A stretch of 64,000 nt of DNA from Fervidobacterium nodosum Rt17-B1 (GTDB lineage Bacteria; Thermotogota; Thermotogae; Thermotogales; Fervidobacteriaceae). Location of the stretch: contig NC_009718.1 of the NCBI RefSeq assembly GCF_000017545.1, positions 620,001 to 684,000 of the forward strand, given 5' to 3'. Made by a program: the position numbers and the translations under genes. Of the stretch, positions 18,171 through 28,148 are shown piece after piece (positions within the stretch are counted from its first letter, which is position 1; every line of letters begins with the position of its first letter). The notes under the pieces are model-generated. The model had not been told where the DNA came from. It saw only the letters and a program-made list of their open reading frames with translations, and made no database searches.

Positions 18171-19460
18171 ATGGGGCAAGAAACAACTTTGATAATAGGT
18201 GCTGGTGTTGACAAGACAAATGGAATAGGTTTGCCACTTGCGAATGAGTTAATTCCTGGAATTGCTATTTTTGCCAAAAAAGAAGGAAAAAAGTATGAAG
18301 AAGCAATAACATCATTTCTACCTAATCTGAGATTTTCTTTTAACAAAATTATACAAGATTCAATTGAGTTGTTTGCCAGTTATGATGAAAGCAAAATAGG
18401 TAAAATAATAAAAGATTTAGAAAATGAATCAGAAAATGGGAAAGACAAACTTATATTTGATGTTTTAAAAAAGTTATTTAGTAAAGTTAAAAATATTAAA
18501 GAAGAAGGAAAACTAGATGATGAAACAATCAAAGATATAGAAAAGTTACTTGATGAAGAAAGCAAAAAGGAATTAAGCGATGAATATATAATTGAACTTT
18601 CTAAGGCATCGTTTACTGATTCTTTTAGATTAATACTTAAAGCAATTCTAAAAAGAAGTATAGAAAATCCAAATAATCCAATTAGTAAAGTTTTGTCACA
18701 ACATTTTCTAGATTTAGAATCATTATTAGCTAAGACTTTTTTGGGGTTTTACACTGAATCGTTGGCTGAGATAAAAAAATACCTTTATATCTCATGGATG
18801 TTGTGGGCATATCTAAAAACTCGAGAAAAAGAAGTACTTGAAAAAGAAAGTATTCCATTTTATCCGAATATACCTGAGGATTTTAAAGTAATTTCGTTTA
18901 ACTATACATCTTTCCTTTCCAAGCGTACTAATCTTAAAAAGGAGAACTATTTATATTTCCACGGAGTATTAGATAAATATCTTAAATTTGATACAAGAAC
19001 TTGGATCGAACTAGAATGCGAAGATATCCATGAATTCTTAGAAAACACTGTAAGGCAAAATACAGACTTAAAAAATGGAAAGTACCTTTTGCCTGGAATT
19101 ATTCCTCCATTGAAGTTAAAACCTGTTTTGTCAAGCAATTTTATTGAGGATTGGTATAAAGCAAATGAGTGGATTCAGAATTCAAAAAGAATTATTGTCA
19201 TTGGTTATTCATTCAATTATGCTGATGAGCATTTTAATGATATAATAAGGAAGAAACTAAACAATAGTAATCAAGTTCTTTATATTATAAATCCGGATGC
19301 AGAGAATTTGAAAGAGAGAATAAAAAAGATTTTTTCTTTAAGCGACAATTATTTTACCGGAATCGAAAAAAAAGAACATTTGGTTTTTTCTTCTGAAAAG
19401 ATAAAAATTATAGGAGCTAAAGCTGATGAAATCGCGTTAGATAGCATCGATGAATTTTAA
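18171..19460 (+). CDS. SIR2-like domain protein, candidate defence NADase
   Basis: A 429-residue protein. The N-terminus has the Rossmann motif TLIIGAGVDKTNGIGLPLA, like the GAGAS...GLP start of SIR2-like proteins. A long charged helical insert follows (about 60-215). The second half carries ISFNYTSFL, matching the conserved T-x-NYD strand, then LYFHGVLD with the catalytic-type His, and RIIVIGYSFNYADEHF, the IGYSL-D motif. SIR2-like proteins of this kind deplete NAD in phage-infected cells in several defence systems; that role is inferred here. ATG 18,171 follows GGGGG, and a terminator follows the gene. No partner is clearly co-transcribed. Confidence 0.7.
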   Translation: MGQETTLIIGAGVDKTNGIGLPLANELIPGIAIFAKKEGKKYEEAITSFLPNLRFSFNKIIQDSIELFASYDESKIGKIIKDLENESENGKDKLIFDVLKKLFSKVKNIKEEGKLDDETIKDIEKLLDEESKKELSDEYIIELSKASFTDSFRLILKAILKRSIENPNNPISKVLSQHFLDLESLLAKTFLGFYTESLAEIKKYLYISWMLWAYLKTREKEVLEKESIPFYPNIPEDFKVISFNYTSFLSKRTNLKKENYLYFHGVLDKYLKFDTRTWIELECEDIHEFLENTVRQNTDLKNGKYLLPGIIPPLKLKPVLSSNFIEDWYKANEWIQNSKRIIVIGYSFNYADEHFNDIIRKKLNNSNQVLYIINPDAENLKERIKKIFSLSDNYFTGIEKKEHLVFSSEKIKIIGAKADEIALDSIDEF

Positions 19461-19525: not shown

Positions 19526-19559
19526 AGCTTCGGTGAATACCGAAGCTTTTTTATTTTTT
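19526..19559 (+). terminator. Terminator after the SIR2-like gene
   Basis: AGCTTCGG and CCGAAGCT form an 8-bp stem around a 6-base loop, followed by TTTTTATTTTTT. Confidence 0.88.
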
Positions 19560-19605
19560 GTCACAGCAGTAGACAAAAAATAGACTTTTGTCACATAGTA
19601 ACAAT
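19558..19605. repeat. TTGTCACA two-box repeat, copy 1
   Basis: TTGTCACAGC at 19,558 and TTGTCACATAGT at 19,588 are 30 bp apart, with GTAGACA between them. The same arrangement, with identical spacing, stands at 26,981-27,028; 39 of 48 positions agree by hand alignment. Here the second box is also the -35 element of the ATPase promoter, so a protein bound to the boxes would compete with or help RNA polymerase. Confidence 0.75.
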
Positions 19606-19616
19606 TATGGTATAAT
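19588..19616 (+). promoter_or_regulatory. Sigma-70-like promoter of the AAA ATPase gene
   Basis: TTGTCA, a 17-bp spacer, and TATAAT preceded by TATGG. The likely transcript start is only about 5-10 bases before the ribosome site, so the leader is very short. Confidence 0.85.
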
Positions 19617-19634
19617 CGTCCTGAGGTGATGGGG

Positions 19635-20798
19635 ATGGATGAAAAAAAGTTGAAGTATATAATAGAGGCTTTGTTTGATAAGCCGATTGATAATGGTGAT
19701 TTGCTTGTGGATCGTGAGAAGGAGATAGAGCATTTGAATAAAATTGCTTATTTCCAACCGATGGGTATTTTTGGTGTATGTGGTGAAACTGGTGTTGGAA
19801 AGACGACAACTCTGAATTTTATCAATTCCGAAAACGCAAAAAGGTTCTATGTTTTAATAACTGAGAAAGATTCAAAAGAGGTAATAATTGGTGATTTTTT
19901 GTATAAGCTTTCTAATTTGGCGTTGGGGTTGAAAAAGAAGGAAATCAATAAGGTGGCTAATGAGGCAAAGGAGTTTATATTAACCGAGATGAGCCAAAGT
20001 ACTTCGTATGGAGCAGGTTTAAGTGTTTCTGCCAGTTTTTCATATGGGAAATCAACTGTGAGCAAGAAGAGGTTCAATATATACACGGTGAAGGATTATC
20101 TTGATGAGCTGTTATCTTTGCTTGTTAAAGTGTACGGAAAGATTTTGGTTATAATCGATGAATTGGATAAAGAAAAGAAGGAAGAGGTTTTAAATATTTT
20201 GGACTCACTAAAGAGTGTGTTGTTTAAGGAGAATATAGTCACTTTCGTTTCTTTGCCATTTTCTATATACAGAGAGTATTCGAATGATAGGATGAGGTGG
20301 AACGAGAGCGGGAATTTGGAAAATATATTCAGGGACATGATATTCCTTGATCCATTAACGGTGGATGATATAAAGAAGATGATTTTGAAAAGGATAAAGG
20401 AATATCCAGATTATTTTGAGATGGATGCCTTAGATGAAATAGCCGCTTTTAGCGATGGAAATCCGAGAGATGCCTTATGGATAGCTCAGCAGATAGCTAT
20501 AATTAATTCAGATAAAGATAAAATCAGCAAGGAAGTGGTGAAGGAAAGTATAAGGGAGATTATGGCAAAAGGGCTTGAGAAAACGTGGTCGTTTACAGAG
20601 ATACAAAAGACGATATTGCAAGAGTTGATAAACAATCCTTTGGATAAGTCTGAGCTCGTCAAAAGGTTGGAAAAAAAGATTAAACGCCAAACGGTGTACA
20701 CTTACGTTAAGAGAATGATAGATGATGGAGTATTAACAGAAAATAACGGTGTGTTGAGGGTTTCAACGAAGATTAAGTACTATATAGAGAGTCTTTGA
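19635..20798 (+). CDS. AAA ATPase with C-terminal winged-helix-like domain
   Basis: A 387-residue protein. Residues 50-57 are GETGVGKT (Walker A), and VIIDELDKE near 175 is Walker B. A sensor region follows, with LDPLTVDDIKKMI and SDGNPRDALWIAQQI, an arrangement seen in Orc1/Cdc6- and TniB-like archaeal-type ATPases. A glycine/serine-rich stretch (YGAGLSVSASFSYGK) lies between the Walker motifs. The last 80 residues (TILQELINNPLDKSELVKRL, then RQTVYTYVKRMIDDGVL) look like a winged helix that binds DNA. I chose ATG 19,635, since GAGGTGATGGGG precedes it; GTG 19,626 and ATG 19,629 are in frame. Its target is unknown; the TTGTCACA boxes in its own promoter are a candidate. Confidence 0.75.
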   Translation: MDEKKLKYIIEALFDKPIDNGDLLVDREKEIEHLNKIAYFQPMGIFGVCGETGVGKTTTLNFINSENAKRFYVLITEKDSKEVIIGDFLYKLSNLALGLKKKEINKVANEAKEFILTEMSQSTSYGAGLSVSASFSYGKSTVSKKRFNIYTVKDYLDELLSLLVKVYGKILVIIDELDKEKKEEVLNILDSLKSVLFKENIVTFVSLPFSIYREYSNDRMRWNESGNLENIFRDMIFLDPLTVDDIKKMILKRIKEYPDYFEMDALDEIAAFSDGNPRDALWIAQQIAIINSDKDKISKEVVKESIREIMAKGLEKTWSFTEIQKTILQELINNPLDKSELVKRLEKKIKRQTVYTYVKRMIDDGVLTENNGVLRVSTKIKYYIESL

Positions 20799-20827
20799 GT
20801 TTTTATAATTTTTTACAATGAGGTGGT

Positions 20828-21927
20828 ATGTTGAAAAAGGTTCTTATCGTAGGTTATTATCATCCAAAAAATGATAAAAGGGTTTTTAGAACGGTTGAGA
20901 CTTTAAGTAAAGTATGTGATGTTTCTTATCAGTACATTTCAAATAATGAAAATGAAGGTATTTATGTTGAAAACAATATCAAGTTCATTCCTATTTTCTT
21001 TAAAATAAATGCTCAGGAGAATGTTTTGAAAAAGGCTTTGAAAAGGATAAAATTCGATTTGAAAGTGTTAGAAGTTATAGAAAGCGAAGACTACGATATA
21101 CTTTATATGCATCACTTTTTACCGATATTTCCTCTCAAACCTTTCAAGTTTGCCAAATCGAAAAAAAGATGGTTGTGTACGATATTCACGAATACCATCC
21201 TGAAAATTTTTTAAACTCGCTTGGCGGATTAGCAAAAATTTTAAAAGAAAAAATAATGTGGAAAATTTTTGAAATGCAGTTAAAATTAGCAGATAAGCTC
21301 ATTTTTGTATCAAAAGAGATGCAGGAAGATGTTTACAAAAAATTAGGCTTGAAAAAGCCATATTTAGTTGTTCCAAATTATGCAAACATCTTAGTTGAAC
21401 CCAAGGAAAAAAGAAAAGAAATATCATTTGTTGGAAAAGTGACGAGAAATATTGAAAAAGAGAAGGAGATATTGAAAAAGTTAATAGAGAAAGGATTTAC
21501 GTTCAAAATTATCGGGATGGATTCGGATGTGTTTAAAGATGTTCCGCATGAGTATACTTCTTTCCTGCCATATGAAGATATGATGATAGAGCTTTCGAAA
21601 TCCGCTTTTTCGTTGATTTCTTACAATACTGTGAGAAATGAAAGTTACAAGAATGATTTATTCGCACTTCCAAATAAGTATTACGATTCCATATGCGCTG
21701 GTACACCGGTAATAGTTAAGAACTCTTTTGTATCGATGGCCAAAGAGGTGGAAAAGTACGGTATAGGTGTGGTGATAGATCCTAACGACGTTGAAGAGTC
21801 AGTGGAGAGAATTCTTAATGCGTACGAACACTACGATGAACTTATGGAAAATGTGCGAAAATACAAAAGAAATTTTGTATGGGATGATATGAAAAAACAA
21901 GAATTCATCAACTTTGTATTGCATTGA
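20828..21927 (+). pseudogene. Glycosyltransferase with a one-base frameshift at an A7 run
   Basis: ATG 20,828 after GAGGTGG gives LKKVLIVGYYHPKNDKRVFR, a GT4-type N-terminus, and EDYDILYMHHFLPIFP. At 21,161-21,167 is AAAAAAA; the frame then ends after about 16 more codons. One more A would join AKSKKK to MVVYDIHEYHPENFLNSLGG, and the frame continues to 21,927 with KLIFVSKEMQEDVY, FVGKVTRN, a donor region with NDLFALPNKYYDSICAGTPV, and VIDPNDVEESVERI. The repaired product is about 366 residues, normal for the family. As written, the second half may be made alone from ATG 21,169 but would not be functional by itself. Confidence 0.82.
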
Positions 21928-21940
21928 AGGTGATTAAGAA

Positions 21941-23137
21941 GTGAAAGTTCTGGTGATAACAAGCCTTGGTCCGAAGGTTTCAAATCCACAAGCTGGGATA
22001 TTCATTATCAACAGGTTGAAACATTATGAAATGCACGGAATAGATTTTGACGTTGCCGTGTTGGGGTACAACGATAATAAGATGGTGACTTTTGCTAAAA
22101 AGTTTTTGAAGATTTATAACAAAAACCAGCCTCTTAGTACGTGTTGCGGAATAAAGCTAACACCTGTTTTAATAGATAGAAGTTTGATTGACTTAGCATT
22201 GTTCAAGACTTTACCGAATTATTTCTTAAAAACCGCAGGAAGGTTTGCCCAAAGAATTGAAAATATGTTTAGAGTAGAAGATTACGACTTAATTCATGGG
22301 CATGGTATGTACAGTATACCAGCTGGATTAATCGCAAATATTTTATCTGAGAAATACAACAAGCCGTTCGCCGTAAGTTGGCATGGTGGGGATGTAAATG
22401 TAGTTATGCCGAAAAGAGGCAAAATATATGTTAAAGTCCTCGAGAAGGCTTCGGCTAATATTTTTGTTAGCAACGCTATTTTGGAAAAAGCAAAATCGTA
22501 TGGATATTCGGGGAAAAATGCGGTTGTAATTCCTAATGGATACGATCAAGAAGTATTTAAGCCTTTTGATAAAGAAAGTGTAAGAAAAGAGCTCGGAATT
22601 TACAAAAAAGGCTATAAATACATTGGATTTGTTGGCAATCTTTTACCGATAAAGAGGGCTGATAAACTAGGTGAAATATTTAATCTAATTTCGAAAGTAT
22701 ATCCAAACACGTATTTCATAGTAGTTGGAGATGGACCGTTGAGAGAGGAAATTAAGAAGGAAACAGAAGGTTTAAATATTATCTTTACCGGGGGATTACC
22801 TCAACAAGAAGTAGCAAAATGGATGAATGCAATGGATGTGATGATATTACCAAGTAGGCAGGAAGGATTTGGGGCCGTGGCAATCGAAGCGCAAGCGTGT
22901 GGTACTTGCGTAGTTGGAAGTAGCAATGGAGGGATACCAGAAGCGATAGGCTTTCCAGAGTATGTAGTTCAAGAAGGAGAAAATTTTGAAGAAAGGTTTG
23001 CTAAGAAAGTGGTTGAAGTATTAGAACATGGATATGATGCCAACAAGCTAATAGAAAGAAGCAAAGGGTTTACTTGGAGAAATATTGTGGCAAAAGAGAT
23101 AGATGTGTATAAAAATGTTTTAAATTTGATAAAGTAA
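21941..23137 (+). CDS. Glycosyltransferase family 4 (paralogue of the gene at 9,629)
   Basis: A 398-residue GT4 enzyme beginning at GTG 21,941, 13 bp after the previous gene. Motifs: SNPQAGIFIINRL, DLIHGHGMYSIPAGLIA, SWHGGDVNVV, VIPNGYDQEVFKP, FIVVGDGPLREEIKKE, SRQEGFGAVAIEAQACG. The C-terminal 140 residues are almost the same as in the protein at 9,629-10,813, while the N-terminal acceptor half differs more. The two enzymes may share a donor sugar and differ in acceptor, or the shared half may come from recent gene conversion. Confidence 0.92.
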   Translation: MKVLVITSLGPKVSNPQAGIFIINRLKHYEMHGIDFDVAVLGYNDNKMVTFAKKFLKIYNKNQPLSTCCGIKLTPVLIDRSLIDLALFKTLPNYFLKTAGRFAQRIENMFRVEDYDLIHGHGMYSIPAGLIANILSEKYNKPFAVSWHGGDVNVVMPKRGKIYVKVLEKASANIFVSNAILEKAKSYGYSGKNAVVIPNGYDQEVFKPFDKESVRKELGIYKKGYKYIGFVGNLLPIKRADKLGEIFNLISKVYPNTYFIVVGDGPLREEIKKETEGLNIIFTGGLPQQEVAKWMNAMDVMILPSRQEGFGAVAIEAQACGTCVVGSSNGGIPEAIGFPEYVVQEGENFEERFAKKVVEVLEHGYDANKLIERSKGFTWRNIVAKEIDVYKNVLNLIK

Positions 23138-23199
23138 AAAGTTCAAACACGTTAAATTAAAATATTTTAGATTTTTACAATTGATTGGAGGTCTTATGC

Positions 23200-24375
23200 G
23201 TGAAAATAGCTATATTATCGTTTGATAATTCAAAGGTTATAAATTACGGTGGAAAACACATACATCAAAATTTATTAGAACGTGCTCTTAAAATACTTGG
23301 GCATGATGTGACAACGTTTTATCCTCCGATTGAAAGTAAAAAATTTTTTCAAATATTGAAGATTATACTCTCAAATCCAGCCTCTTTATTTTCTTATTAT
23401 GTACGATACAAGAAAAAATTCCAGGATCGCTTTCATTTATTTTCCTCGCTAAAATTAGATAATTTTGACATAGTTCACTGTCATGATGTTGGAAGTCTTT
23501 ACAATATTGACCATCCGTCGACAGTTTTAACATTGCATGGATATCTGGCAAGGGAAGCGGTTAATTACTCACCTACCATTTCCGAAAAAGACAAACGTAA
23601 AATTTTCGATTTTTGCATGCAAATAGAAAAAAGTGCGGTGAAAAAGGCTAAGCATATTATAACTGTCGATAGCAGGTTGAAAAACTATGTTATTCAAGAA
23701 TTTGGCTATCCAGAAGATAAGGTTACTGTTATATACAACGCTGTTGATACAGATCTCTTCAAACCTGTTACAGATGAAGAAAAAATTTTACTTCGAGGCG
23801 AACTCGGATTTCCAAAAGATACCTTTATTGTTTTTGTTCCAAGAAGGTATGTAAAAAAGAATGGAGTAGATTACGCTGCACGTGCTTTTTCTAAAATTAA
23901 GTCAAATGATTATCTCTTTGTTTTTGCTGGTCGAGGTCTGTTAAAATCAGAAATTCAGGAGATACTCAAAGATAACTCCAACGCGCTCATACTTGATGCT
24001 ATACCGAATGCCGAAATTCACAAATATTACAAAGCAGCTGATTTGATATTAATACCAAGTGTTTCCTCTGATGATGTTGAAGAGGCAACTTCACTGAGTA
24101 TGTTGGAAGGTATGGCGTGTGGGAAAGTGGTTGTGTGCACAAACGTAGGTGGTATGAAGGAAGTTGTAAAACATATGGAGAATGGAATACTTATAGAACA
24201 AAAGAATGTTGATGCGATAGTTGAAACTTTACATTATGTTAAGAACAACTATGACAATTTTTCTGAGCTTAGGCAAAGAGCAAGGGAATACGTTGTGAAG
24301 AACCATTCTTACATTGAACATGCGAAAAAAATTGTTGAAATATACGAAAAAGTTATTTCGGAAACAAGGCGGTGA
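23200..24375 (+). CDS. Glycosyltransferase family 4
   Basis: A 391-residue GT4 enzyme. GTG 23,200 (MKIAILSFDNSKV) is chosen because GGAGG lies at 23,187-23,191; the nearby ATG 23,196 is out of frame and soon stops. Features: GGKHIHQNLLERAL loop, FDIVHCHDVGSLY, TLHGYLAREAV, HIITVDSRLKNYV, VIYNAVDTDLFKP, FVPRRYVKKNGVDYAARAF, and DDVEEATSLSMLEGMACGKV with Glu residues at the donor site. It is the second gene of a run that ends in a family 2 transferase and a flippase. Confidence 0.9.
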   Translation: MKIAILSFDNSKVINYGGKHIHQNLLERALKILGHDVTTFYPPIESKKFFQILKIILSNPASLFSYYVRYKKKFQDRFHLFSSLKLDNFDIVHCHDVGSLYNIDHPSTVLTLHGYLAREAVNYSPTISEKDKRKIFDFCMQIEKSAVKKAKHIITVDSRLKNYVIQEFGYPEDKVTVIYNAVDTDLFKPVTDEEKILLRGELGFPKDTFIVFVPRRYVKKNGVDYAARAFSKIKSNDYLFVFAGRGLLKSEIQEILKDNSNALILDAIPNAEIHKYYKAADLILIPSVSSDDVEEATSLSMLEGMACGKVVVCTNVGGMKEVVKHMENGILIEQKNVDAIVETLHYVKNNYDNFSELRQRAREYVVKNHSYIEHAKKIVEIYEKVISETRR

Positions 24376-24379
24376 AGTT

Positions 24380-25522
24380 ATGAAAATATCTGTTCTAATG
24401 CCAACTTACAACGATGCTAAGCATATAGGTAAATCTATAGAAAGTGTCTTAAGTCAACGTAAAGTAGATGTTGAACTCATAATCGTAAATGATGGCTCAA
24501 CCGATGAGACAGAAAAAATTGTGCTTTCTTATAACGATAGAAGGATAAAGTACATAAAACAAGAGAATAAAGGGCAACTTGACGCATTGCTGAATGGTAG
24601 TAAATTTATAACTGGAGATCTTGTTTGTTTATTTCATTCTGATGATTTGTTGACTGATGAGTTTGCTTTCAAAAGGAATGCAATAACAATCATTGAGAAA
24701 AATTTGGATGGTGTGTACAGTGACTATGTAAAAATAAATGAAAAAGACGAAGAGACTGGAATTTTGAGAGTATACAAAAACTTTGGTGAAAACACTTAAA
24801 AAAAATTAATCCATTTGAATGGAGCTAATGTAATAGGTGACCACTTTTTTGTAAAGAAAGAAGTGTTTTTTAGGTATATTGTAAAAAATTATATAATATG
24901 GAACCAGCCTTACTGGTTCAAAATAAAAGACGGAAAAATACACTCGTTGAGATTGAGTTATATAAGTCAGCCATGGTACAAATACCGAGTTTACAGTGAA
25001 AATTACGCAAGAAGTGAAGTTGGGAAATTTGTAGCATCAAACGGGGTTATAAGAACAATAGTAGAGTTATCTAAATTTTACAAGATACATTTCGCGGGTT
25101 TTAGATACATTCACAGGTTACCAACTAACTTAGTTGTTCACCGTTCAGAAATTGGTTACGAGCAATACCACAGACAAGTGTACAATTTAATCAAGAAAGT
25201 TTTTAAAAATTACGGTGTGTCTCCCGAAAGTAATATTTATTACGAAGCTCTTCTTAACTTTTATGGGAAAAAATCGAATGTAAAACTTGAGATTGAGGAT
25301 AAATTAATCAAAGAAGCTCCTCTATTGTTTGGAAAGGATGTCAATATTTTTTACAATATGCTTTTAAGTAATAATCTTCCAAGAATCTATAAGCTTTTAT
25401 TAGAGACAGCATTTAAAGGTGGATTTGAAATTGTAGTAAACAAAGAGTATGAGAAAAAAATCAATTTAATTCTTAAATTTCTAAATCTTTCCGTTCCGGT
25501 ATCCACAAAAGGAGGATATTAA
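24380..25522 (+). pseudogene. Glycosyltransferase family 2 with an in-frame TAA at codon 140
   Basis: ATG 24,380 begins MKISVLMPTYNDAKHIGKSI, then IIVNDGSTDETEKI (nucleotide-binding DGS) and LFHSDDLLTDE, where S-D-D takes the place of the metal-binding DxD. At 24,797-24,799 ACT is followed by TAA AAA AAA. The same frame continues KKLIHLNGANVIGDHFFVKK and PYWFKIKDG for 240 codons to a normal stop. A change of TTA (Leu) to TAA would explain it. The repaired GT-A enzyme is 380 residues. A restart at about 24,815 would give a C-terminal piece without the donor site. The stop overlaps the ATG of the next flippase by one base (TAATG). Confidence 0.8.
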
Positions 25523-26961
25523 TGAATATAAATGAACGTAATCTTTTGAAGAAATATATTTCATTCTCGCTCGGTACTTGGTTCAAAGCGCTTATATCTT
25601 TCTTTATCACACCAATCACTACTTGGCTAATCAATCCAGAAGAGTTTGGAAAAGCCGCGATGTTTTCTACTGCTTACTCGATAATTCTACTTGTAAGTAT
25701 TCTTGGTACTCCTTCGGCTTTACTTAGATTTTTCCCACAAAAATCAGAAGAGGAAAAAACCATCCTTTTGTGGAGTAGTCTTATAACACCAATTATTTTG
25801 AGTGCATTGATAAGTATCGTTGTTTTTATTTTTAAATCCTCCATAAACGCCTTTCTCGTGGGAACTAGTGTATCAAATGCTCATGTTATTTTAATTGCAA
25901 CGCTAATAACTGGAATTTTCCAAACATTCAATATGAACCTAGTTAGAACTAAAGGAAGAGGAATTCTTTTCTCAGCAATTGACATAACTCAGTCAATCAG
26001 TCAAATAGGTTTCATTTTGCTTTATGCTCTGCTTGTAAAACGCGATTTTTACGCTTTGCTTTACGCACAGCTTTTTTCGAATATTTTAGCGCTCGGTATT
26101 GGAATGTATTTTGAGAGAGATTATTGGTTCCCAATAAAGATAGATAAAAAATTAGTTTTTGAAGTAGTACAATACGGATATCCGCTTGTTTTCTCCGGCC
26201 TTTTTTGGTGGATCCTTAATTGGATAGATAGGGTCGTGTTACGTTTGTACGTAGACTTTTCTGAGATTGGACTTTACAGTGCCGCCTTCAAAATAATCTC
26301 GGCGATGAATTTACTTACAAGTGGTTTTTCAACACTTTGGTATCCCTTTGCATACGAACAATATGAGAAAAACCCTGAAAACAAAATTATATTTAAAAGA
26401 ACTTTGGACTACGTGGCTTTTTTAACATTCTCTGCAGGGTTTGTTCTGCTTTCGTTTAAAGATGTTATCTTCCTTTTGCTTGCAAAAACGTACAGGCCAG
26501 CTGCAGCAATTTCTCCATTTTTAATCTTGAATCCTGTAATGATAACTATGGCTATTGTTGTTGCAAGAGGGATAGATTTTTCGAAGAAAACATACTGGTT
26601 TATTGTTAGCAACAGCACAGCGGCTATATTCAATTTAATAGGGAATTTCCTGTTGATTCCAATCTTTGGAGCAAAAGGGGCGGCAGTTTCAACAGGATTA
26701 TCTTTTATAATTGTTTTTGCCATCGAATCAAGTGTCTCCAAAAAGTTGTATCCTGTTCCATACAATTTGAGAAAGGTTTACTATCTTGTGATTATTTTTA
26801 TTTTCTCGGCATCGTTTCATACATTTTCGCAAAATCTATTCCTATCAATTCTTTCATCATTAGTTGGACTTCTTGCCACAGTTTTTCTATACAAATCGGA
26901 ATTCTCAAAAGTGTTTTCAGTTAGCGTTGATTTAATCAAGGGAATAATTCATAAAATATGA
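25522..26961 (+). CDS. Polysaccharide flippase (Wzx-like), second copy
   Basis: A 479-residue membrane protein with 12-14 hydrophobic segments, of the MOP superfamily. Typical motifs are FSLGTWFKALISFFITPITT, LINPEEFGKAAMF near residue 40 and RFFPQKSEEEK. It differs strongly from the flippase at 13,996-15,429, so the locus carries two distinct exporters, perhaps from two gene clusters that were joined. The ATG overlaps the preceding stop (GGAGGATATTAATG), so translation is coupled. It is the last gene of the polysaccharide locus. Confidence 0.9.
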   Translation: MNINERNLLKKYISFSLGTWFKALISFFITPITTWLINPEEFGKAAMFSTAYSIILLVSILGTPSALLRFFPQKSEEEKTILLWSSLITPIILSALISIVVFIFKSSINAFLVGTSVSNAHVILIATLITGIFQTFNMNLVRTKGRGILFSAIDITQSISQIGFILLYALLVKRDFYALLYAQLFSNILALGIGMYFERDYWFPIKIDKKLVFEVVQYGYPLVFSGLFWWILNWIDRVVLRLYVDFSEIGLYSAAFKIISAMNLLTSGFSTLWYPFAYEQYEKNPENKIIFKRTLDYVAFLTFSAGFVLLSFKDVIFLLLAKTYRPAAAISPFLILNPVMITMAIVVARGIDFSKKTYWFIVSNSTAAIFNLIGNFLLIPIFGAKGAAVSTGLSFIIVFAIESSVSKKLYPVPYNLRKVYYLVIIFIFSASFHTFSQNLFLSILSSLVGLLATVFLYKSEFSKVFSVSVDLIKGIIHKI

Positions 26962-26980
26962 TATTTTAATTTATTTTCAC

Positions 26981-27028
26981 TTGTCACAGCTGTAGACAGA
27001 AATTCTACAGTTGTCACATAGTCACAAA
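26981..27028. repeat. TTGTCACA two-box repeat, copy 2
   Basis: TTGTCACAGC at 26,981 and TTGTCACATAGT at 27,011, again 30 bp apart, begin 19 bp after the flippase stop. Between the boxes, CTGTAGA and TCTACAG form an inverted repeat. No -10 box stands at a normal distance from the second box, so unlike copy 1 this is not an obvious promoter. It marks the far edge of the ATPase-to-flippase segment. Confidence 0.7.
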
Positions 27029-27122: not shown

Positions 27123-28148
27123 TTAAGATATCTGTGATATCTGTGATATCTGTGATATCTGTTCTTCTTTTTCTTCTTGCCTTAATTTTTGTATTAATCT
27201 ACCTATGATTTGTTTCCAATCACCGACGATGGCAAGGTCGGCTATTTTCATTATTGGGGCTTCCGGGTCTTTGTTTATGGCTATTATGTATTCGCTTTCT
27301 TGCATTCCAGCAAGGTGCTGGATTGCTCCAGAGATACCAACCGCGATGTACAGTTTTGGTCTTACCACTTTCCCTGTCTGACCCACTTGTCTGTCTTTTT
27401 CTATCCAGCCGTTGTCCACAGCTGCTCTTGAGCCTGCCACTTCTCCACCGAGTAAATCTGCCAGTTCTTTCAACTGTTCAAATCCTTCTTTGGAACCTAT
27501 CCCTCGGCCGCCCGCGACGATTATCTTCGTCTCGGTTATGTCCGTTCCTTTTCTAACTTTCTTAACAATTTCCTCGATTGTTATTTTGAATTCTTTACCT
27601 TCTAAATTTGGGATAAATTCTATAATTTCCCCTTTTCTGTTTACATCTGCGTTTTTGAGTGGAAATACACCCGGTCGCACTGTCGCCATTTGCGGTCTGT
27701 TGTTTGGGCAGATTATTGTTGCCATTAAATTGCCACCGAATGCGGGTCTTGTCATGAGGAGTAATTTCGTTTCTTTATCTATTTCAAGTTGTGTACAATC
27801 TGCCGTTAAGCCTGTTTTTAACCTTGCCGCAAGGCTTGGTCCGATTTCTCTGCCAAGTTGCGTTGCGCCAAGTAAGAGTATTTCTGGTTTTTCTTTTTCG
27901 ATGATTTGGCAAAATGCTTCCGTGTATTTTTCGACTGTGTAATTTTTGAGTTCTTTGTGTCTTACAAGGATAACTCTATCAGCTCCGTGTTGGATAAGTA
28001 TCGGGGCTAAGTGGGATATGTCAACTCCAGGGATAACCGCTGTAACTTGCGTTTCTAAATCTTGTGCAAGTTCACGCGCCTTACCAAGTAACTCAAGACC
28101 GACTTTGTGAAGTTCGCCATCTTCCTGCTGGCAAAGAACCATTATCAT
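27123..28148 (-). CDS. etfA: Electron transfer flavoprotein, alpha subunit
   Basis: A 341-residue EtfA, which with EtfB carries electrons to or from the butyryl-CoA-type dehydrogenase encoded upstream. The C-terminal FAD domain is clear: VAGGRGIGSKEGFEQLKELA, GSRAAVDNGW, GQTGKVVRPKLYIAVGISGA, AINKDPEAPI and ADLAIVGD. I take ATG 28,148 as the start because GAGAGGTGAG lies just before it; the in-frame GTG at 28,157 lies inside that site. The 3' end carries four copies of a 9-bp unit, adding four Gln-Ile-Ser triplets to the tail. It is the last gene of the bcd-etfB-etfA unit. Confidence 0.93.
   Translation of the reverse strand: MIMVLCQQEDGELHKVGLELLGKARELAQDLETQVTAVIPGVDISHLAPILIQHGADRVILVRHKELKNYTVEKYTEAFCQIIEKEKPEILLLGATQLGREIGPSLAARLKTGLTADCTQLEIDKETKLLLMTRPAFGGNLMATIICPNNRPQMATVRPGVFPLKNADVNRKGEIIEFIPNLEGKEFKITIEEIVKKVRKGTDITETKIIVAGGRGIGSKEGFEQLKELADLLGGEVAGSRAAVDNGWIEKDRQVGQTGKVVRPKLYIAVGISGAIQHLAGMQESEYIIAINKDPEAPIMKIADLAIVGDWKQIIGRLIQKLRQEEKEEQISQISQISQIS
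27127..27162. repeat. Four tandem 9-bp repeats in the etfA 3' end
   Basis: GATATCTGT occurs four times without interruption. On the coding strand this is CAG-ATA-TC(A/T), giving a QIS-QIS-QIS-QIS tail just before the stop. Because the unit is a multiple of three, copy-number changes would keep the frame. Confidence 0.95.

Follow-up and report, generated by a model that had tools for sequence, protein, structure and literature searches.

The window, a 64,000-nucleotide stretch of the genome of Fervidobacterium nodosum Rt17-B1, contains a gene for an AAA+ ATPase followed by a set of sugar-polymer genes, the whole being bracketed by two copies of a direct repeat that we designate R. The features of this locus are as follows.

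19558-19604, + strand: R_up, the upstream copy of R, a five-box array of the TGTCACA type overlapping the -35 element of the ATPase promoter (profile E-value 2.5e-9 in its own genome)
19611-19616, + strand: TATAAT, the -10 element of the ATPase promoter, 17 bp 3' of the TTGTCA in R_up
19626-20798, + strand: AAA+ ATPase (Pfam ATPase_2/AAA_22) with a C-terminal winged helix, its predicted recognition helix at about residues 354-366 (RQTVYTYVKR region)
20828-21927, + strand: cargo, group 1 glycosyltransferase, in two overlapping frames (20828-21214 and 21169-21927)
21941-24375, + strand: cargo, two family-4 glycosyltransferases (21941-23137 and 23185-24375)
24314-25522, + strand: cargo, family-2 glycosyltransferase, in two same-frame ORFs (24314-24799 and 24815-25522)
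25522-26961, + strand: cargo, polysaccharide flippase (Polysacc_synt)
26981-27028, + strand: R_down, the downstream copy of R, 20 bp past the flippase stop codon (profile E-value 5.1e-12)

The first-pass annotation had described a two-box repeat with copies at 19,558 and 26,981, 30 bp between box starts and 39 of 48 positions in agreement. Both positions are borne out, the box starts are spaced as claimed (19588 minus 19558, 27011 minus 26981) and a recount by hand again gave 39 identical positions in 48. The ungapped match between R_up and R_down extends over 58 nt at 78% identity. With up to three mismatches allowed, the two-box pattern occurs twice in the window, against 0.00 occurrences expected from 100 dinucleotide shuffles, and exactly twice in the whole genome of 1,948,941 bp; a profile of the R site recovers the same two copies, and no others, in this genome. 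The placement of R_up in the ATPase promoter also proved correct, the array overlapping a good promoter (TTGTCA-17 bp-TATAAT), as did the lack of a usable -10 element at R_down. The idea that R_down is a duplicated promoter was discarded, since there is no -10 here and no exact TATAAT in 28 of the 30 units described below.

R_down coincides with a step in GC content at 27.0 kb, from 0.345 to 0.402, and separates an AT-rich stretch on its left (0.26-0.37) from core-like DNA on its right (0.40-0.43). No R was found beside etfA in relatives, among which the 3' neighbours of etfA differ. The 3' end of etfA in the window (27123-27160) carries tandem 9-bp repeats (ATATCTGTG) that encode a C-terminal ISQISQISQIS. 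The gene directly left of R_up (18171-19460) resembles AbiH, with a Pfam score below the cut-off, and SIR2-type defence proteins (PADLOC).

The group 1 glycosyltransferase is read as ORFs of 128 and 252 aa in different frames, whereas a single ORF of about 363 aa is present in relatives (for example the 363-aa product of L152 3296-4387); 20828-21927 is probably one frameshifted gene, the shift being either real or a sequencing error. The family-2 glycosyltransferase is apparently split by a stop codon at 24797-24799.

The repeat and its ATPase across the Thermotogota

Aligned with its relatives, R is a site of 46 bp with about five direct boxes placed 9-11 bp apart; the two boxes of the earlier description are present within a longer and more regular array. 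This spacing corresponds to one helical turn, so that all of the boxes lie on one face of the helix. The boxes exist in three dialects: TGTCACA, as in the window, TGTCGA and, in one genus with genomes of about 3 Mb, TGTCGGA. There are two copies of R in the window's genome and from one to six elsewhere, the sites being clustered, and these counts refute the suggestion that R marks many unrelated promoters for a general regulator. Predicted hairpins are moderate in some TGTCACA-type Rs (z from -2.6 to -3.3) and absent from one TGTCGA-type R (z 0.1). In the genus with genomes of about 3 Mb, a conserved stretch of tens of bp, TTTCGCGTCTCTTCCAAGGACAGCTCTTCTCGCTTT, precedes most Rs (L068, L069, L154 and L155) and could belong to a longer terminal sequence in that genus. 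In a genome of the genus Marinitoga, a TGTCGA-type array abuts a TGTCACA-type R (L055 7407-7515, also L012), with tRNA and phage terminase-like genes adjoining.

The ATPase is patchily distributed, occurring in 37 of 103 Thermotogota genomes. A profile scan placed it between two Rs of the same orientation in 34 of 44 loci, fragments counted, and all 74 ATPase-adjacent Rs share the orientation of the gene. The usual unit spans about 1.3 kb, with R_up 50-115 bp 5' of the start codon and R_down no more than about 15 bp from the stop codon. Of 30 units, 26 have an exact TATAAT within 55 bp after R_up, and two have one after R_down. The ATPase is the sole gene, recombinase and transposase genes being absent from the units examined. 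A contig search with one ATPase protein as query returned only Marinitoga lauensis, and no homologues were found among the plasmids, phages and viral contigs searched; a phage or plasmid origin of the unit was rejected for this reason. Some units occupy broadly conserved loci, which is consistent with long vertical inheritance in those cases.

The window departs from this arrangement in that R_down lies 6.2 kb past the ATPase stop codon, with the sugar set in between. The pair of Rs does bracket the cassette that had been described here, while in relatives it normally encloses the ATPase gene alone. The sugar genes, which had been taken as the defining content, were met between the Rs in this genome alone; what is conserved is the 1.3-kb R-ATPase-R unit. 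The sugar cargo nonetheless fits a wider habit, because solitary Rs occur in polysaccharide loci of three other genomes (G018, G022 and G032), the one in G022 next to a gene related to the first glycosyltransferase of the window.

The ATPase scores above the gathering cut-off of Pfam ATPase_2 (37.2 bits against 33.2). Its closest fold is that of DNA-bound Cdc6/Orc1 (2qby, Z 18.7, 320 residues aligned, rmsd 7.7), followed by archaeal ATPase_2 and STAND proteins and by TnsC (Z about 13.5). In sequence it falls far below the cut-off of the NCBIfam orc1/cdc6 family TIGR02928 (19.8 bits against 181.3), and a sequence search of the PDB gave only weak matches to RuvB. The recognition helix, predicted from a structure model (pLDDT 84.6), reads KRQT[AV]YTY in TGTCACA-type ATPases and KRTTAYS or PRSTAYS in TGTCGA-type ATPases. 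Mean identity between R_up and R_down is 0.91 within a locus against 0.63 between loci, and R similarity tracks ATPase similarity (Mantel r = 0.81, exceeded in 0 of 2000 permutations), although common descent alone gives some correlation. In several genomes that carry both types (G019, G022, G024, G043, G076, G081 and G096), each ATPase is accompanied by its own R dialect. Because the recognition helix varies with box type and each ATPase keeps its own dialect, it is likely that the ATPase binds R. The proposal that the Rs are operators read by the winged-helix tail of the ATPase thus stands as regards the position of R_up at the promoter and the way R follows ATPase clade and recognition helix, with binding itself predicted from these sequence patterns.

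Borders and states of R-flanked blocks

Comparisons between relatives reveal sharp borders at R. Two Marinitoga genomes (G050 and G072) have 97% identity across the unit, but on either side of it they agree at about 48%, as unrelated AT-rich sequences would. Between two genomes of different families, one of them a Thermotoga (G029 and G024), identity is 92% inside the unit and 40-50% outside it. G029 and G031 have R_up, the ATPase, R_down and the right flank in common, and their left flanks diverge from the edge of R_up.

The same loci are met in different states. Where G004 has R-ATPase-R, G007 has a solo R, with a downstream flank that is 96% identical. The solo R of G007 equals R_down of G004 at 46 of 46 positions, while R_up of G004 departs from position 7 on. 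The extra block in G004 is therefore R_up plus the ATPase, placed at the left edge of a resident R. G088 and G086 differ from G081 by the same kind of solo and occupied states. At the bioY-pabA locus of Marinitoga, R is absent in G072, present once beside a nuclease-like gene in G088 and present as R-ATPase-R in G081, so that absent, solo and occupied states of one locus are all observed. An R-less empty site was sought in two Thermotoga genomes (G035 and G021), where the flank was not conserved. No target-site duplication was seen at the G004/G007 locus, and clean empty sites are few.

R also borders genes other than the ATPase. Among 113 confident R sites, 39 have no adjoining ATPase, and where such a site has another R next in line at a distance of up to 15 kb, the two share one orientation in 15 of 15 cases. 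Genes for ATPase_2-DUF234 and AAA_14-DUF4143 proteins lie between Rs in G006, the corresponding locus being occupied by R-ATPase-R in G004 and G008 and by a solo R in G007. MFS, radical SAM and ParE genes are found between Rs in G086 and G088, AAA_21-DUF4276 and ImmA/IrrE-like genes in G082, and AAA_15-DUF3226 and HTH genes in G010. Such R-bracketed accessory genes, which include toxin-antitoxin, defence-like AAA and MFS genes, occur even in genomes that lack the ATPase. The earlier suggestion that the Rs are ends of a block moved as a unit agrees with homology that does not extend past the outer ends of the two Rs and with the solo and R-less states; the recombination mechanism that it implies is the conjectural part.

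Mechanism and alternative readings

In our preferred reading, to which we assign a probability of roughly 0.6, R has two functions, as the operator of the ATPase and as the junction of a cassette that is mobilized by trans-acting or host recombination, with the ATPase presumed to bind R and strands to be exchanged there. The ATPase would be expressed from the promoter that overlaps R_up and would most likely load on R as an oligomer. Bound to R, it would control its own gene and mark or pair the Rs, and DNA between Rs as well as new R-led blocks would be gained or lost at R. We infer this role of the ATPase in movement. Strand exchange would fall to an activity not encoded in the cassette, either a recombinase supplied in trans or the host's own recombination acting on pairs of Rs. 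Most R-bearing genomes tested, that of the window included, have exactly one tyrosine recombinase, which is of Xer size and encoded far from R (a single PF00589 protein in, for example, G000, G004, G007, G081, G088 and G029). Accessory genes would become cargo in this process, the cargo in the window being the sugar-polymer set between the ATPase and R_down. More tentatively, and against somewhat unfavourable odds, the cassette could be a minimal recombinase-free mobile element, in which an initiator-like AAA+ winged-helix ATPase on end arrays directs the gain and loss of its own gene and of cargo through a host enzyme.

The main rival holds that R does no more than serve as an autoregulatory operator array, with R_down as a second operator acting by looping or as a roadblock, and that the blocks arise by homologous recombination or slippage together with DNA uptake, with no dedicated element. 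The overlap of R_up with the promoter, the TATAAT that follows 26 of 30 R_up copies against two of 30 R_down copies and the lack of a recombinase in the unit all agree with this. A solo R is also what recombination between direct repeats is expected to leave, and the solo-R states could be plain deletions of this kind; in Thermotoga maritima, DNA flanked by long direct repeats is lost by deletion (PMC4447916). We nevertheless consider the operator-only explanation unlikely, in view of the Rs that bracket ATPase-unrelated genes in genomes without the ATPase and of the abrupt loss of similarity at either edge of units that share 92-97% identity but lie in unrelated flanking DNA. Furthermore, the junction falls at or before the first box in three comparisons, a bias not expected of crossovers distributed along the 46 bp, and repeats of 46 bp offer homologous recombination little length to act on.

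It is improbable that the R-ATPase-R unit is a decayed or non-autonomous transposon, served in trans by a DDE transposase and with the ATPase acting like TnsC, IstB or MuB. Block-wise movement, several binding boxes in R, as in Tn7- and Mu-like ends, and an AAA+ fold near TnsC (Z about 13.5) would suit such an element, but its ends are direct rather than inverted, no unit holds a transposase gene and no target-site duplication was seen at G004/G007. IS21-type terminal repeats were rejected, the ends being direct and the transposase absent. That the ATPase is a bacterial Cdc6/Orc1-like initiator, R its iterons and the units integrated mini-replicons is very improbable, for although the closest fold is Cdc6/Orc1 on origin DNA, the boxes beside the initiator-like gene resemble iterons and the NCBIfam orc1/cdc6 model matches weakly, that match scores 19.8 against a cut-off of 181.3, the ATPase was on no plasmid or phage searched and it occurs in only 37 of 103 genomes.

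The cassette of our preferred reading shares traits with several known systems. Like integron cassettes (attC, IntI), R blocks present accessory genes, including toxin-antitoxin pairs, between same-orientation sites, as variable arrays at fixed loci with occupied and empty states; unlike them, they have no IntI-like integrase and apparently no conserved attC-type hairpin, are few per genome and feature a five-box direct array beside a dedicated ATPase gene. Xer-mobilised pdif modules resemble R blocks in having short direct sites at their borders and no recombinase inside, and a host Xer-type enzyme is the sole tyrosine recombinase in many R-bearing genomes, whereas R, with its boxes read by eye, is not an 11-6-11 Xer site with inverted arms. 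To our knowledge, the pairing of R with an ATPase has no counterpart in pdif modules.

Elements of the Tn7, Mu and IS21 types (with TnsC, MuB and IstB) have multi-box ends, an AAA+ protein and block movement in common with the R unit, which differs in its direct ends (74 of 74), its lack of a DDE transposase and its initiator-type C-terminal winged helix; despite the TnsC-like fold, no TnsB partner or transposase is present in the units examined. Archaeal Cdc6/Orc1 proteins, the best structural match, share the AAA+ and winged-helix domains and the box arrays beside the gene, whereas the R-associated ATPase is bacterial, dispensable and in sequence far below the family cut-off, and its unit appears to be mobile. 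The ATPase_2 proteins PAB2304 and SSO1545 are similar in Pfam family, fold and patchy distribution, but the R-flanked ATPase has no DUF234 or nuclease domain. Integron, pdif, DDE, Tn7-type and Orc1/Cdc6-origin systems each part from the cassette in at least one defining feature tested, and searches of the open-access literature turned up no account of it. There is a reasonable chance that the R-ATPase cassette represents a separate category of element.

The genomes of Thermotogota are known to be mosaic and contain few integrases, which do not explain the entry and exit of small accessory blocks. A phylum-wide cassette with an end site, a predicted site-specific ATPase of its own and defence or sugar-polymer cargo would offer a concrete and testable route. 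A mobile unit whose single gene encodes an initiator-type ATPase would be unusual, and two box types with matching recognition helices would provide a ready system for the study of DNA specificity.

Altered units were also encountered. In G096, a TGTCACA-type ATPase gene is broken by several stops between two intact Rs (L061 7471-8643), while in G010 two Rs 488 bp apart enclose only a C-terminal remnant of the ATPase (L150 3176-3709). In G022, a unit is flanked by the start regions of PF09820-like genes and has an R_up without the first box (L058 7800-7920 and 9160-9345).
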